Positions 2,106 to 39,483 of a stretch of DNA of 64,000 nt are shown here, piece after piece. Both the position numbers and the translations under genes were made by a program. Source of the DNA: Gyrodactylus bullatarudis (lineage: Eukaryota; Platyhelminthes; Monogenea; Gyrodactylidea; Gyrodactylidae); contig SSNU01000064.1 of NCBI GenBank assembly GCA_012064415.1, forward strand, positions 169,613 through 233,612, written 5' to 3'. Below the pieces are notes generated by a model, which was given only the letters and a program-made list of their open reading frames with translations, made no database searches and had not been told where the DNA came from. The stretch's first letter is position 1; every line of letters begins with the position of its first letter.

Positions 2106-3266
2106 TTTTTCTTTCTATAAAGTTGCCATCATTTTGAAAAGTTCCTATTTTTATTTAATCTCTTTGATTACTGGATTTGAAACTCAAAAGACCGTTATAA
2201 ACCAAATGGTCCAACACTATGCTAAAATAATGTCAATCATATAGTTTTCGATTAATTTTAATAAGTACTTTTTTGATAAGGAGGCTGAAATGGAGATTTT
2301 AAAGCTCCACTCCTTTTTTAACCCAAATGAGAAAAACTCTGTAATATCTATGAATACTGATTACTTGAACTAATAAAAAATTTTTATATCCCTCCCGATA
2401 ATCGTCTGATAAATAATGTATCTCTCCCCAAAAATATTTGTGAAGAAAATTTTATGCTTAAATACCTTAATTCAAAATCCTCGGAAATTTTTCAATTATC
2501 CAATGAACGCTGAAGATCCAAAGTAAACTTCCTCAGATCCAACATTGGATCTTTCTCATATTGCATCCTCCTCTGAAAAGCCCATCTTTCTTCACTTCTC
2601 CTTTTCAATTTCAGTCAGAAGATTAATCACTAGATTTTTACACTATTTTATCAAAAATGAATAATTTTACTCAAATTATTCAGTTTAAACATAAAATATC
2701 TACTACTGAGTAGATATATGAATCGTTTTTAAAAATAAACTACTAGAGAATCTGTATTCAGATCAAAGATTTTAATTTTTATTCAATTTCATAAAACTAA
2801 TGACAAACTGTTAGAAAAATGAATGTTTTTTGAAAAGCAAAAACAAAGTGAAGAGTTAATTGAATCTAAATATTAGCCAATTTCATCAACCTGAAAGCTG
2901 AAATATTGTCGACCAAATCATTTCCAATCTTTTCTCAGTTTATTAAGCCTTGAAATTAACTTTTTCCATCTGAAGCTTTGAAATTTGCAATAGCGTTTCC
3001 ATTCTGAACAATACTGGGTTAAAGATTTGAAGAATCTTCCTCTTTTACTCCAATTAAATCTACTTTTACTAATATTTATTCAAGCTCTAATTTATTTCTC
3101 ACCAATTCTGGAATAAATCCCAGTCTATTGAGCTAATGGATAATTTACAATAACATCCATATTGAATTATGCCTTACATAAATAACCTTTTGATGAAATT
3201 AAAATGATTTACGACAAACATGCCGATAAATAAGAAACATAGTTCAAGTACTCATCTCACTGGATA
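2106..3266. other. Intergenic, nothing recognised
   Basis: AT-rich, no supported coding sequence. A weak TATA-like CATAAATA at 3177-3184 lies about 85 bp before the Kunitz start codon and could serve it. Confidence 0.4.
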
Positions 3267-3575
3267 ATGTTTCTACTCATTCTAATAGCTATATTGCTGC
3301 AGAGTCTACTCTCAAAGGTCAAGAACTTGGATCTCTGCTCAGAACCCTGGGTAGATAGTACATGTGGCTTCTTTGGTTGTCAGAATAGGGAGTTCTGGTG
3401 GTACGATTATTGGAATTCAACTAGTAGAGGATGTAAAACCTATATTTACAAAGGCAAGGGAGGACCCTCTGACAACTGGTACAGGTCAAAAGAACAATGT
3501 GAAGAATACTGTGGTCATTTTAACCATTCAGATGATTATCAACCCTCTGATCATGGGAATCCATTGGATTGGTAG
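3267..3575 (+). CDS. Small secreted Kunitz/BPTI-like protein
   Basis: A 102-residue single-exon protein. Residues 1-16 (MFLLILIAILLQSLLS) form a clear signal peptide. A Kunitz-like domain spans about residues 24-82: first Cys at 24, an aromatic FWWYDYWN block, then GCKTYIYKG (the counterpart of the usual CxxFxYGGC block) and a closing EQCEEYC. Six cysteines are present (24, 33, 38, 56, 78, 82), but the usual Cys of the YGGC block is absent and an extra Cys lies at 33 or 38, so the second disulphide must be rearranged. Kunitz domains commonly inhibit serine proteases; with this pattern inhibition is only possible. The start is chosen because it begins the signal peptide. The C-terminal tail after the domain is polar. 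The overlapping frame at 3364-3663 is a shadow. Confidence 0.75.
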   Translation: MFLLILIAILLQSLLSKVKNLDLCSEPWVDSTCGFFGCQNREFWWYDYWNSTSRGCKTYIYKGKGGPSDNWYRSKEQCEEYCGHFNHSDDYQPSDHGNPLDW

Positions 3576-18741: not shown

Positions 18742-20215
18742 ATACCATGGATAAACTTTTCAAAAAATCTAAGAGTTTAGTTTTTCAAATGAAGTTCAGA
18801 TTTAAGAAGGGTCGAGGAATAATTAATAATAATTATTTTTAAATTTGATAGATCATCACAGTAACGAAATTCAAAAATGGAGTAAAGGAGTATATACTTA
18901 TAAGTAGAGAGTAGATAATGGTAATAGAAAGATGTGCATAGCTCCCCGGAGCCAAGGATGAGTTATTAGAGAAAGTCTTAACGATAAAAGCTGTTCTACG
19001 AATCCGAATTGGATCAAGACCAGATGTTATAATCAAGGCGTTATAAGAGTAAATGGTGGGGTATAAATAGTGAAGGAATCTATACTGAACCCTTTCTAAT
19101 TCAAGCTAAGATCTGCAGTTCCCTGGTATCAGTGAAACGATTTTTTTTGTTTTGTTAGAAAAATTTATTAATATATACAATATAGGTAAATATGAACATA
19201 AATAAATCTTATATAACGATATAATGTGCAAAAATATACAATACATATTTGGTCTATTTGATTTAGTTCATTTAACAGTCAAGTAACTAAATGAGTCTGA
19301 GCAATAATTCGAAGACCAAACTGGATTTGATAATTTATAAATGTAGGGAAGAGTATAAGAGAGATTTTGAATAATCAATTTTTGATCTAATATATGCCAT
19401 AATAGATTTAAGGAGGTAATGGATGACGACGAGTTTGTAAAACTTTTTATAATAAAAGCGCATCTTCTGATCCACAGTGGCTGTAGCCCCGAGATCGAGA
19501 TGAGCGCATTGTTAGAGTCAAGATTCAGATACAGAGTGTAAACACGATATTGGATTCTTTCAATCTCTAAAGATTGATAGTGATTTATATCGTATAAAAG
19601 AGGAAATAAATAGTCAAAATGACTTAGGACTAGGCATTTATAAGCTTTTAGTTTAAGTACAATAGATTTGGAGAATTTTTGAATAGTTTTTAAATAATAA
19701 AAAATCTTTTTAAAATTAGAATAAGGATCAATTTTTAATTTTGAATCAATACTGAAACCCAGATCAAAAGTAAAGGAGACAATTTCTCCAGGAAGTAGAA
19801 GCGATTCAAGGAGGGTTGCAGGGAGACCCAATGCGAGCATTATCTTGCATTTATCTCTGTTTAGACAGAGCCCCATGGACTCGAGTGAATCTTTTAAAGA
19901 GTAGAAGTAGTGGTTGATTTTTAATATATCAAGGTAGTTTCTCACCTTGAAGACGAATTTAATATCGTCTGCAAATTTAAAGAGAGCACCCTCAGTACTC
20001 TCTGGGAGCTGAATATCAGCGAAGCAAAGATTGAAAAGAAGCGGACCGATGGTTGAACCGTGTGGAACACCCGAGTTGATGGGTTGTATCTCACTGGAGA
20101 AGGAGTCATATGCAACATATTATAACGATTGATTATGTAGCTAACAGTTTTAATATGATTGATCTTTGTTAGAGGTTCAATTTTAAGGGAAGAGTCAATC
20201 TCAAAGATCAATAGT
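18742..20215 (-). mobile_element. Truncated LINE with reverse-transcriptase core
   Basis: Minus-strand reading gives, across a frameshift, the RT blocks SGVPHGSTIGPLLFN and KFADDIKFVFK (about 20070-19945; FADD is the catalytic site), then a 225-residue frame (19945-19268) with MGLCLNRDKCKI, LSHFDYLFPLLYDI and a C-terminal RRCAFIIKSFTNSS block. This is the arrangement of jockey/CR1-like non-LTR elements. It ends after TTTTCTAACAAAAC (about 19158-19145); a second 3' end continues to 18742. The 5' part including the endonuclease is missing, and stops and frameshifts make it inactive. Confidence 0.75.
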
Positions 20216-27000: not shown

Positions 27001-28626
27001 CTGATAATGAAACCATTGGCTTAATTTGGTAATGTTTAGTGAGTTTACATTAAATTCTTTAAAGATACATGGTTAGGGGATCATTCTTAAACCCTCTTGT
27101 GACAGCTCAAAGTGACTAATTACCCTTTAATCAACAATGTGCCTCAAATTCAGAAATTATACTATAGTGGTGAGATGATAGTGTTGAAACTTAAACTCTA
27201 AATGTATATGTTATATTAAACATGCGAGAATATGGTTTATTGACTTACCTTGATCACCTGTTTGGAATAGAAAGAGTATTAATTTTATACCAATAATTTA
27301 TGGGTACATTGAAATAATTTTGCAAAAAATAGAAAATCAATTACTCTTCCTTTCTATGTACATTTTATATATAATATACATTTTATACATGCGTGAAATT
27401 AAATACAAAATGGTGCATACGTACTTTCTTCATTGCCGAGAAACATGGCATTCTTACATAATTCGATGAGTTCATTGAGTAATTTGGGACAATTCTTTAT
27501 AATGTAATCTTTGTCAAGTTTCAGATTAACGGGTAACTCTAGTCTCCTAAGGTGTGCATAAATGAGAGCTTTAGCTTTCACAGAATACGGAGAACCAATT
27601 ACAGCCTTTTTGAAAATTGTAAATTCCGGAAGATTTTTAATAAGCTGACAAAAAAAGATAATTAGCTCATTACTCGGTTGTACTTTAGATAATAATAAAC
27701 ATACTGAAGATAGATCGTAATTATCACTAGACCGAAGAATGATTTCTTTATTGTATTCACTAGAAAATTCGAGAGCCTTTGATACAAGTTGGATGACAGA
27801 GCGCTTACATTGGAAGGGATTTTGTAACAGTTCTGACATGAAGACATTCTTGGTAATGAGAAGGACCTTGGATGCGCTATATCTCACAGTGTTACGCCAC
27901 CATGTTCCCACACCAATTGGCAAAACAAGTAGGAAAAGAAACACGTAGAATCCCAGGACTAAATATTTATTTTCTTTCATAATTAGCCATTTTGGCAGGG
28001 CAATCCCGTAACTGGCTGCTTCCGGACCATCAGGATTTCCGAATTCAATCCAATTCTTTTTCATATCTTCATTCGTCAATCTAAATTTAATATATCAAGA
28101 GAAATCAAAACTAACGCTGAGTAAGCCTTTGATATGAGAATAAAGGTTTTCTCATCGCCTCCCTTGTCAGGATGATGTTTCAATGAGAGCATCTTGTAAG
28201 CTCGACGAATCTGCGAGGTAGTAGCATCTTTGTCAATATTCAAAATGGCAAAAGGATCATAGGTGGAAACAAAACTTTCCTTTACTTCAGAAAGACGATG
28301 AACCAAATTTATGAAAATTAACCAACAAAAGACAAGAAAAATTTTCCTGAAATTAAATGAATCCGTAATTACTTGAGACTCTTTTTTATTTCCTTTTTGC
28401 CAGAGCTGATTTTTGTCAGCATAACTTTTGATTGACATACCTTGCAGCGACAACGTTTGCTTATTTTGAGGTTTTCTATAGACGATAAGTGAAATAAAAT
28501 ACCATATTGATCATTAGACGATAGCAAATAATAGGTCAAAGGAATTAAAGTCAAAGTGTAGAATGCAACAAAGAAACAATAGAATACATCACCATCTTCA
28601 TCGAACTGAAACTGTTTACCAGGCAT
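24085..28626 (-). CDS. SEC63: Translocation protein SEC63 (DnaJ/Brl domains)
   Basis: Membrane J-protein of the ER Sec61 translocon that recruits luminal BiP. Exons (minus): 28626-28373, 28346-28116, 28080-27705, 27644-27425, 27257-27249, 26971-26814, 26749-26438, 26369-26255, 24774-24506, 24435-24085. All phases agree and give 764 residues, close to the usual length of about 760. Landmarks: MPGKQFQFDEDG start, membrane segments near 14-36 and 87-100, J domain about 113-165 with the HPD triad at 143-145, the NPDGP motif, a third membrane segment ending in VGTWW, two Brl/Sec63 blocks, the FEGWWVYLVDRR and LMVRSDCYVGFD blocks, and an acidic tail. Intron 1 is uncertain: 26 nt as listed, or 35 nt (28440-28406), which would change a short linker. 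A piggyBac-like MITE lies in intron 8. Confidence 0.93.
25247..25743. mobile_element. piggyBac-like MITE with TTAA target sites
   Basis: A 489-bp unit (25251-25739) flanked on both sides by TTAA, the piggyBac target duplication. Its ends are imperfect inverted repeats: CCCTTGAAGTCGCA on the left and, on the complementary strand, CCCTCAACGTCCCA on the right. No transposase. It sits inside SEC63 intron 8. Confidence 0.65.
27249..27257 (-). other. SEC63: Nine-base microexon of SEC63
   Basis: GTGATCAAG on the minus strand, with a good acceptor (CTATTCCAAACAG) before it and a near-perfect donor (GTAAGTC) after it. It enters and leaves in phase 1, so inclusion adds three residues and skipping keeps the frame. 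Flanking introns are 167 and 277 nt. Confidence 0.7.
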
Positions 28627-28769
28627 TGTACCAAATAATGTCTTGATACAAACAAATTCTCGAACCTAGAATCATCATAAACAAAATTTGCTTGATAAAT
28701 AGTGCACCAATTTGAATTAAAAATTTAGTTATTCAGTAATAATATCAAACTATAGTCAGGAAATATTGT
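28627..28769. promoter_or_regulatory. Bidirectional promoter region of SEC63 and RFK
   Basis: Only 143 bp separate the divergent start codons of SEC63 (28626, -) and RFK (28770, +). No TATA box or CCAAT pair stands out. Head-to-head housekeeping genes often share such a region; sharing is inferred from spacing alone. Confidence 0.55.
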
Positions 28770-29241
28770 ATGTTTTCTTGCAAAGGACTCGTTGTAAACG
28801 GTTTCCAAAGGGGGAGTAAAGAACTCGGTTTTCCAACAGGTATTTACCATTCATAATTGATTTTAGCAAATTTATGTGATAATGTTTTGGATAAACTACC
28901 AAAATCCTTAAATAATGGAATTTATTGTGGGTATGCCAAGGTTAACAGTGGACCAATCTACAAAATGGTTGCTAGCCTGGGGTATAACCCTTTTTATAAA
29001 AACGAAAAAAGAACATTTGAAGTGCACATACTGAATAAGTTTGAGGAGGATTTCTACGGAGCCGAATTGAGCGTTATAATCGCGCAACGTATTCGAGATG
29101 AAGCTAATTTCAAAGATATAGGTATGAGATATTCTTGAATTTTTAGAATCTTTAAAGAAAATGATCGAGAATGATATTCGAATTGCAGACGAAATGCTAC
29201 TAGAGCATGAAGGATTGAAAGACCATGCAATTTTCCACTAG
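28770..29241 (+). CDS. RFK: Riboflavin kinase (FMN synthesis)
   Basis: Phosphorylates riboflavin to FMN with ATP; cytosolic, first step to flavin cofactors. Exons 28770-28839, 28867-29121 and 29147-29241 give 139 residues, slightly shorter than vertebrate forms (about 155). Landmarks in order: GLVVNGFQRGSKELGFPTAN, with the nucleotide-binding PTAN motif split by intron 1; NNGIYCGYAKV; YKMVASLGYNPFYKN; FEVHILNKFEEDFYG; then ESLKKMIENDI. Both introns are extremely short (27 nt at 28840-28866 and 25 nt at 29122-29146). Without splicing, the first exon meets a stop after six codons and the PTAN motif is lost, so removal is required. Both introns are phase 1. The start is set by similarity to the family N-terminus. 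Confidence 0.93.
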
Positions 29242-36600: not shown

Positions 36601-39483
36601 TGATTCCCTCGTGTTCATTGATCTGGATTCCTCGGACTGTCTTTGATAAACGCTTATCTAAATTAATATTGAATCAAGTCTTTAACTCAAAAATCAATGA
36701 TCATTGATCTGTAAAATAAACAGTACACAGCTATAATAAATAATGTGTTATCAGCGAGTGGATCTTATTTTGTTTCACTTGGCATCCTCTTTTCAGAAAG
36801 CTATCATATCACAGTATTCGAGTACATGGCCTAGAAGTTATAAAAGAGTCTAACATTACCTAATAAATCATGAGAATTTTTGAAAATTATATAACTATTG
36901 TTACTACTATTCGGCCTATGTGAGCTTTTTCACTTTTCTCTCCACTGTTGCTATTTAATGAAGAGTTTTGGTGTTTTTTCAGCTTGCATTTATTCTTAAT
37001 TCGTTTCATCCGAATATAGTTTTTACTATGGAAAGAGAATCTAATGGTATCTTGAGTTTCTTAGATGTCAAATTGACTAGAAGAGAAGATGGATCAATTC
37101 TGAGAAATATTTATAAGAAGAAGACTGACACCGGGAAGTATCTACATTATGCCAGTTTCAGTCCTATCTCTCATAAAGTTGGCTTAGTAATTGGTCTAAG
37201 TAAGAGGATAAGAAAGATAGCAAGCCCTGAGGAATGGTCTAACGAAATAGAGAACGTGAAGTTAAGTCTGAAGGAAAATGGTTATCCCGGTAAATTTGTT
37301 GACAAATTCATGAATGTATCTATGGATAGAAATGAGCTTGTCGAAACAGATGAATTGGAGAAAACAACTATTTTTATGAAGCTCAACTTCAAAGGTGATG
37401 GGTTCAGTAATGATATTAGAAGAAGGCTAAATGATCTCATCAATCAACATTATAATAACATACAATTGAAAATTGTATTTAAAACTCAGAGATTATTTAG
37501 TTTGATTCATAAGGATTTGCTGAAGCCGGAGGAGAAAACTCTATTAGTTTACAAATTCCAATGTGATTGTAGAGCCTCATATATAGGTAGAACTATTAGG
37601 AAATTATCTACAGGTGCGGAGGATCATCTGAAGAAGGATACTGCGGTTACTAGGCACCTTAGACAAGAAGATCATACAGCTTCAGTTTCTAATTTTTCCG
37701 TTTTATACAAAAACCCCAATGACAACAGCATAGATGTATGGGTGAAAGAAAAATTTCTTATTAACCTATATAAACCTAATCTATGTGTTCAAAAAAACTA
37801 TTCCTATAATCTTCAACTACCTTGGCCAATGTAAGCTTTTTCACTTTTCTCTCCACTGTTGCTATTTATTGGAGAGTTTTGGTGTTTTTTCAGCTTGCAT
37901 TTTATTCTTATTTTCTTTGACTTTTACTATTTCATTCATGATTTGTAAATTATTATTTTGAATGAACTTTTAACTTATATCACTTTTGAAGAATTACCAC
38001 TGATGATAAGAAATGTACATTTGGTTTAAATATATTTTCCTCCAATTTTTCTAAATTATGAATTTAAGTGGATTTTCGGACGTGTTTGAAAAACTACGTG
38101 AATTACTTGTAATATTCTTAATTCTTAAACTTGTACTATTTCTTTCAAAATTGTAAATTATTATTTTCATTCAATTCTCATTTTTAAAGTGATACCACTG
38201 GTGATACTTTATAAGAAACTTGGTGCATTTGGTCTAAATATATCTTTTACTTCTATATTTTCTGCATGGAAAAATAGAAATTTTTGTCAAAATCATAGAT
38301 TCCCAACTTTCCATCAATTAGCTTTATATTATACAATGCAATTTGTACTATTTTCTTATTTAGTATGGAAGAAATTGATCAGATTAGTTCTAAAACTAGT
38401 TGATTTACACGTTATAATATATCAGGATTTCCCGTTAAATTCTATTACTTATCTAACGAGTAGGCTTATTATTTCAAGTTCTTAATGGATAGAAATTTTA
38501 TGTTTTTTGTTTCATTTGCCTTTGGGCGATCATTTGCCAAGAGAATTAGCAGTAGTATTCTTTCTATGATGATTCAGTTCTATGATAACTCACAGCTATA
38601 ATCAGCATAATTGACGTCCATAAAGAGAGATTTGCTAATCTCATGATAGAATGCCTCGAAGGATACATTGTTCAAGTTACTATTAGCAGTACTGAAACTG
38701 TTATTATTAACATTCGAGGTGGATGGTGTTGTCAAGGAGGGATTCAGGGAACTTTGATTGGACGGTTGTGTTGTTGCAGGGATTCCTTCGTTACTCGCAC
38801 TGTTGTTGTTGTGCCTATTGCTGTAGTTAATGATGTTCGAGTGGATATGTCTGATCATATTCTGGACTATGGTCTCTGCATCGCTACCCTCTTCATTGAG
38901 CATTATGCTAGACTCTTGGAGGAACTTTTCAATGTCCAATGGAGCTCTTATCTCTTGGGAGAAATCTTTGACAGAGACAGTCTAGAATTTTATCAAGTTT
39001 TTAGAGTTTTCTTAGGTTCTTTTGTTATTCATTTCAAGTAATTCTGTGAGAAACTTGAAACTCTCTTTGTTTAGCCATGGTATCAAAGGTTGGGATAAAA
39101 ATGATCAAGTTTTTGAAGCAATAGTTTTCTTGATGGACGAGTTGAGATATTCCCAAAAAATTAAACTCCCTTCATCATCATATTAACTAGAGCTTTTGAT
39201 TGGAAAATACCAACTGTTCCATTTCGCATACCCTGGGGGTTATGTATAAGGGAAACGATTTATATCTAAATTTATTTATAGAAAATGGTCTATTCCCCAG
39301 AGAGGTTTGAGTATAAACTACATACATACACACTTACATTTGTAGATCAATTCTATTCTAGGAAATTTGCATCAAATCAAAAGACAACTTATCAACAGTT
39401 GCTGGTGTGAAGCAGGAAAAATAGTGTAAAATTTCTTCAACTTACTTCGAGACGAGCCAGTACCAGACAGGGTAGGTGATCCG
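30696..39483 (-). CDS. SLC4A11: SLC4A11-like membrane transporter (5' end missing)
   Basis: SLC4-family plasma-membrane carrier; SLC4A11 relatives are linked to borate, proton/hydroxide, ammonia and water transport, and the substrate here is unknown. Exons (minus): 39483-39446, 38981-38594, 36657-36573, 36510-36387, 36321-36112, 36057-35976, 34704-34591, 34514-34401, 33610-33478, 33056-32983, 32920-32740, 32463-32357, 32286-32118, 31897-31352, 30756-30696. Every junction keeps phase and gives 807 residues; relatives have about 875-920, so one or more N-terminal exons were not found. Landmarks: FSQEIRAPLDIEKFL, RRGPKYLSDYYDG, FLYLSCLLPTIAFG, ILGGQPLIVLETSMP, KADLDER-type loop (KVLADLDERIG), IPNGVLYG, SAYPPSHYLKKVP and the IPMRHSLIPKLIPEKFLEAMD C-terminus. 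Two introns hold a foldback element and a Penelope-like element. Confidence 0.92.
34779..35490. repeat. Foldback element, family B, in a transporter intron
   Basis: About 710 bp, starting CTAGTTGATATGAAGATGAG and ending with the inverse CATCTTCATATCAAG plus CAGGGTAAAG. Both arms carry the blocks TCTCCGGATTCACAG, ATGCACCAAATTTCC and GATTTCGAAGCA in inverted order. It lies wholly inside the 1.27-kb intron 34705-35975, in which it would form a long pre-mRNA hairpin. Confidence 0.8.
36913..37910 (+). mobile_element. 5'-truncated Penelope-like element with GIY-YIG domain
   Basis: The frame 36968-37834 (288 residues) matches the C-terminal part of Penelope-like retroelements: after the RT core, LSFLDVKLTRREDGS and YASFSPISHKVG, then a GIY-YIG endonuclease with YKFQCDCRASYIGRT near residue 190 and the usual closing KEKFLINLYKPNLC. 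The catalytic RT core (YxDD) is missing. An 87-bp direct repeat flanks it (36913-36999 and 37824-37910; GCTTTTTCACTTTTCTCTCC in both), which fits the pseudo-LTRs of this class. It is inserted, antisense, in an intron of the SLC4A11-like gene. The frame is intact over its length, so insertion may be fairly recent. Confidence 0.8.

Follow-up and report, generated by a model that had tools for sequence, protein, structure and literature searches.

Two introns, just 27 and 25 nt long, very probably interrupt the riboflavin kinase (RFK) gene within the 64,000-nucleotide stretch of DNA analysed here (the window). The explanation we favour, with a probability of about 0.92, is that the two pieces are very small GT-AG spliceosomal introns in the single-copy RFK gene of a gyrodactylid, and that they belong to the microintron class of a two-class system, a class found mostly towards the 5' end of the coding sequence in the stretch studied. 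Directly observed are the junctions, the need of the protein for them, the splice letters common to these and longer introns, the occurrence of further introns of similar size, and a 5' bias in the modelled genes. Judging from the sequence, both RFK introns would be spliced out in the worm.

The RFK gene is encoded on the forward strand at window positions 28770-29241 and consists of three coding exons. Coding exon 1 (28770..28839, +; 23 codons and one base) is followed by intron 1 (28840..28866, +; 27 nt, GTATTT...TTTTAG, phase 1), coding exon 2 (28867..29121, +; 255 nt), intron 2 (29122..29146, +; 25 nt, GTATGA...TTTTAG, phase 1) and coding exon 3, which includes the stop codon (29147..29241, +). 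The spliced coding sequence (28770-28839, 28867-29121 and 29147-29241) specifies a protein of 139 aa. When intron 1 is kept in, an in-frame TAA is introduced; keeping in intron 2 results in a TGA and a frameshift. Using the Pfam Flavokinase profile, the spliced protein scored 123.8 bits, as compared to 88.7 bits for the unspliced genomic sequence, which carries one stop inside the match. The RFK locus was the only Flavokinase match in the 77.3-Mb assembly (471 contigs). Human RFK (PDB 1nb0) aligned to the spliced protein with 135.6 bits over residues 2-130 (129 residues), gap-free across both junctions, and a homologue search revealed 54% identity to a tapeworm protein. RFK (+) and a SEC63-like gene (-) are arranged head to head (window 28626-28770), their start codons being 143 bases apart, as with a shared promoter.

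The position of the junctions was evaluated with a profile built from 69 RFK homologues, the query being left out. Deletions near each site, one at a time and no longer than 100 bases, were scored provided that the frame stayed long enough. With retention counted too, there were 1232 candidate readings at the first intron and 5241 at the second. For intron 1, the junctions proposed in a preliminary description of this DNA obtained 198.6 bits, in a tie with two shifted placements that are both non-GT-AG, and the runner-up GT-AG placement obtained 173.5 bits. The junctions proposed for intron 2 also scored 198.6 bits and tied with three non-GT-AG shifts. At this site three non-GT-AG deletions scored higher (two of 25 bases at 199.6 bits, one at 198.8 bits), while the runner-up GT-AG placement, of 7 bases, reached 189.6 bits. 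The proposed junctions are the top GT-AG option at both RFK sites. The identical protein is yielded by three placements for intron 1 and four for intron 2, of which one per site is flush with GT...AG; taking P(GT) and P(AG) as approximately 0.053 each, we estimate by hand rather than with a tool that a flush GT...AG would arise by chance in about 1% of cases per site (≈1e-4 for both). In the alignment, the P, T, A and N of the PTAN motif are each present in 68 of the 69 homologues, and none of the 69 displays extra residues between query residues 23/24 or 108/109. GT-AG ends and the restoration of a conserved protein by removal, as expected of a spliceosomal intron, were thus found together at both sites. 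The preliminary description had the coordinates 28840-28866 and 29122-29146, the lengths, the GTAT starts, the TTTTAG ends and phase 1 right throughout. Its further claim, that PTAN and the second junction are restored only upon removal, agrees with the conservation of P, T, A and N, with the gap-free alignment to human RFK and with the stops encountered on retention.

The unspliced RFK frame is broken twice, which is also what a pseudogene or a misassembly would look like; the extra stretches would then have arisen by insertion or as errors, and the locus would not give a functional RFK. We consider this quite unlikely given that each of the two stretches is bounded exactly by GT and AG and has a T-rich end, that outside them the reading frame is undamaged and conserved (the tapeworm protein is 54% identical), and that the assembly holds no second Flavokinase match. 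The pieces might alternatively be removed without a spliceosome, by translational bypassing or by splicing of the tRNA or self-splicing type, a reading that the small size, and nothing else, would favour. It is very improbable, as longer introns of this genome have matching GT-AG ends and splice letters, the assembly contains a U2 snRNA whose branch-pairing stretch is the usual GUAGUA, and no Rfam model reached its gathering score anywhere in the 64-kb window.

Introns in the surroundings of RFK were modelled with a gene finder that received no homology input and was trained first on long open frames; a second version used a length prior of 1/L. Four pieces made up the 284 kb scanned: the whole window, 200 kb on its right, 10 kb on its left (with a 387-base overlap with the window) and 10 kb from contig C1. 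This sample represents approximately 0.4% of the genome and derives nearly entirely from one contig. The gene finder reported 160 introns, with 29 genes above threshold, as compared to 11 introns in 4 genes (four introns shorter than 46 nt) for the reversed sequence used as control. Of the 160 introns, all 17 belonging to a transposon-like model (joined coordinate 208028) were dropped together with a 15-nt call, leaving 142. The two RFK introns were added by hand, neither gene-finder run having called RFK, which gave 144. Eighteen of these introns measure 23-42 nt (median 30), 41 measure 47-74 nt (median 61) and 85 measure at least 80 nt, with a single intron between 43 and 52 nt. On the 284 kb, a short class therefore stands apart from a second short class, as in flatworms with microintrons. 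Retention of any of the 20 short calls made before dropping breaks the frame or adds a stop, a property for which the gene finder itself selects.

The preliminary description had suggested that introns of similar size occur elsewhere in the genome, and several genes bear this out. The SEC63-like gene has a first coding intron of 26 nt (28347..28372, -; gene-finder model) and a second of 35 nt (28081..28115, -; at residue 161.7), the latter spanned by the Pfam DnaJ match (residues 115-171). SEC63 had been named as a case of introns of 23-27 nt, which holds for its first intron and fails for its second. Similarly, Pfam BLTP3A_B (residues 1-341) spans introns of 23 and 31 nt in a BLTP3-like gene, and Pfam MAS20 (residues 11-124) spans a 28-nt intron in a TOM20-like gene. 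The gene finder further placed introns of 27, 42, 26 and 39 nt in a TPR gene. A 30-nt intron in dynactin lies at residue 70, at the end of CAP_GLY, and because the domain ends there it provides no test of this intron. For a 30-nt intron in PRMT5 the profile gain over reading through was just 8 bits. Dynactin and SEC63-like were each named from a single domain together with our reading of the protein, and TTC37-like and TMEM67-like were named by eye. A thyroglobulin-type gene, also cited as a case, was not found in a weak search for CWC letters in six frames, which gave five places, none of them convincing.

Right of the window, on contig C424, two tandem-duplicate genes (protease-like, named by eye; joined coordinates 100244 and 102966) each contain an identical 33-nt intron, so that the two are not independent. 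Further frames were recognised by eye. Window positions 36962-37834 hold a 290-aa frame that resembles the GIY-YIG endonuclease-like end of a Penelope-like element (CDCRASYIGRT), and a similar frame is found at joined coordinate 218669. A 283-aa frame at 19268-20119 is like a non-LTR retrotransposon reverse transcriptase (FADD-like motif) and has a relative at joined coordinate 212288. At 3243-3575, a 110-aa frame displays a hydrophobic start followed by a Kunitz-like cysteine pattern.

Within genes, the short introns come first. All seven genes of the 284 kb that mix short and longer introns have a short one as their first coding intron (mean relative rank 0.125; permutation p≈2e-5). This is a 5' bias of coding introns such as that described for the fluke Opisthorchis felineus. 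The two tandem-duplicate genes have one intron each, a short one, and eight genes of the gene-finder set have at least two introns but no short one. Donor and acceptor letters were alike across the intron length classes; before dropping, position +5 was a G in 60% of the short (n = 20), 83% of the mid-size (n = 42) and 76% of the long introns (n = 98).

Counting of splice patterns irrespective of gene models yielded a different result. Over the whole genome, AG/GTAAGT...TTTCAG was found 26 times with a spacing of 20-50 nt, 40 times with 51-81 nt and 24 times with 262-292 nt (background). By this spacing the middle class shows, and there is no excess for a short class. The strict pattern is low in power because few short introns fit it. 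The pattern read backwards, intended as a control, gave more matches in all three ranges (61, 50 and 66), but has other word frequencies; the spacing ranges were therefore compared instead. Donor-acceptor distances, counted over 264 kb with five pattern pairs, revealed no clear peak and scattered excesses only, e.g. for GTA[AT]G...TTTAG at 24 nt (6 vs 1.4), 39 nt (6 vs 1.3) and 19 nt (4 vs 0.8). The peak at 22-30 nt that had been anticipated in the intron lengths did not appear: the whole-genome pattern count is without a short excess, and the short class is spread over 23-42 nt. Nor is a general class confined to 22-30 nt supported: 18 of 144 introns are shorter than 46 nt, and just 8 of 144 are shorter than 30 nt.

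For such small introns we propose recognition by intron definition, in which the donor and the T-rich acceptor would be recognised as a pair across approximately 25 nt, and a degenerate branch A would lie near the 3' end, just a few nucleotides before the AG. The branch-like word YTRAH is present in 11 of 20 short as compared to 38 of 42 mid-size introns, a count that has the RFK pair outside the set and in which longer introns offer more room for the word. In the RFK introns, TTGAT and TTGAA can be seen by eye near the 3' ends.

A search for U6, in which 48 of 11714 candidates were scored, returned two U6-like sequences with 91.1 and 54.7 bits, located at L024:1501-1603 and L025:1501-1601 on contigs C154 and C426. 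The better copy reads ACAGAAA against ACAGAGA in the Rfam consensus, and the degenerate copy has the same A at this second-last base of the box. The usual U6 22-mer (GATACAGAGAAGATTAGCATGG) is absent from the whole assembly, and one place in the assembly lies within three mismatches of the 31-base U6 core. The first 20 positions of the better copy fall inside an inverted-repeat arm (54 nt, 96%; second pair 33 nt, 97%), and because of this overlap the copy may be borne by a mobile element and non-working. Both copies may be defective, with the U6 gene from which they derive missing from the assembly. A bolder interpretation would be that short introns in this gyrodactylid lineage have been reduced to the lower limit otherwise known from dicyemids and ciliates (23-31 nt), that the same genes nevertheless retain introns from 60 nt up to several kb, and that the spliceosome has altered in a way that permits this. 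The G-to-A change common to both copies might be a remnant of that alteration, although we regard this interpretation as a whole as improbable.

The identity of the genome was established from two genes. Read in the standard code, COX1 (contig C13) is interrupted by 12 TGA codons, whereas the flatworm mitochondrial code gives an open frame of 517 residues. The best match of COX1 is a cluster led by Gyrodactylus albolacustris (89%), followed by Macrogyrodactylus, Cichlidarus and Paragyrodactylus (83-84%) and by further monogeneans from 71% down. For PRMT5, encoded on the contig of the window, the nine best matches comprise one unnamed protein and eight proteins from named flukes or tapeworms, with which identity is 43-47%; a sturgeon protein ranks tenth. 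Because of these matches we assign the genome to a gyrodactylid monogenean, and the host of the short introns is a flatworm. Published gyrodactylid assemblies measure 67-91 Mb and have a GC content of 31-39% (PMC12677651), consistent with this assignment.

The preliminary description had drawn a comparison with dicyemids and ciliates; dicyemids as the nearest case are not supported by this identity. If the genome were that of a dicyemid or an orthonectid, introns of the dicyemid type would account for the short pieces, given that the median intron is 27 nt in Dicyema sp. and 57 nt, with some shorter, in an orthonectid (PMC6543705). The 89% match of COX1 to the Gyrodactylus cluster and the flukes and tapeworms among the nine best PRMT5 matches speak against it and lead us to reject either identity as extremely unlikely. 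Moreover, 85 of 144 introns are at least 80 nt long here, against a mean of 38 nt in Dicyema japonicum, and the GC content of the window is 28.5-35.8% (4-kb stretches), against 36.7% in that species (PMC6736024). In dicyemid-type genomes most introns would be shorter than 30 nt, which is the case for 8 of 144 here.

For the microintron reading, there are practical consequences. Gene finders or aligners set to a minimum intron length of 30-50 nt would disrupt the models of such genes close to the 5' end, and the first domains of flatworm proteins may therefore be mis-annotated. The genome is also suited to asking how one spliceosome handles introns of 25 nt and of kilobases in one transcript, and why the tiny introns come first.

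Very short introns are already established for flatworms, gyrodactylids included, and the RFK introns are short members of this known class. Taenia and other tapeworms are described as having two-peaked short introns, at about 36 and 73 nt, with the peak-1 introns towards the 3' end of genes, and two peaks are also reported for the monogenean Gyrodactylus salaris (PMC5036155). In the light of this report, the RFK introns are less surprising than the earlier statement, which placed them far below the usual metazoan minimum, made them out to be. In Opisthorchis felineus, microintrons peak at 37 nt beside a second peak at 90 nt, and lie near gene starts and adjacent to one another; the same source gives a microintron fraction for further flatworms and cites two peaks in Cestoda and Monogenea (PMC6530080). 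A modest novelty may be the size, with a median of 30 nt, from 18 short introns in a small sample, against published peaks near 36-37 nt. No flatworm was found in the open-licence literature to have a short class with its median near 30 nt next to another near 61 nt, which is weak evidence of absence.

Compared with these systems, the genome resembles the tapeworms and G. salaris, itself a gyrodactylid, in having two short-intron classes, but differs from the tapeworms in the medians (30 and 61 nt) and in having its short class at the 5' end. As described for O. felineus, the short introns are located near gene starts, adjacent to one another and beside longer introns; they are, however, shorter, and whereas the microintron sites of the fluke are nearer to consensus, +5G is less frequent here in short introns (60%) than in mid-size (83%) or long ones (76%). 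In absolute size they are similar to the introns of dicyemids, for which a mean of 26.2 nt (n = 16) is given (PMC2222250), but the animals are different, as seen from COX1 and PRMT5, and only 8 of 144 introns are shorter than 30 nt. Similar size and GT-AG ends are likewise shared with the introns of the unrelated Paramecium (≈25 nt; PMC2222250, PMC5014332); such ciliates are reported to possess ultra-short introns only (PMC5014332), while in this flatworm longer introns are present as well.
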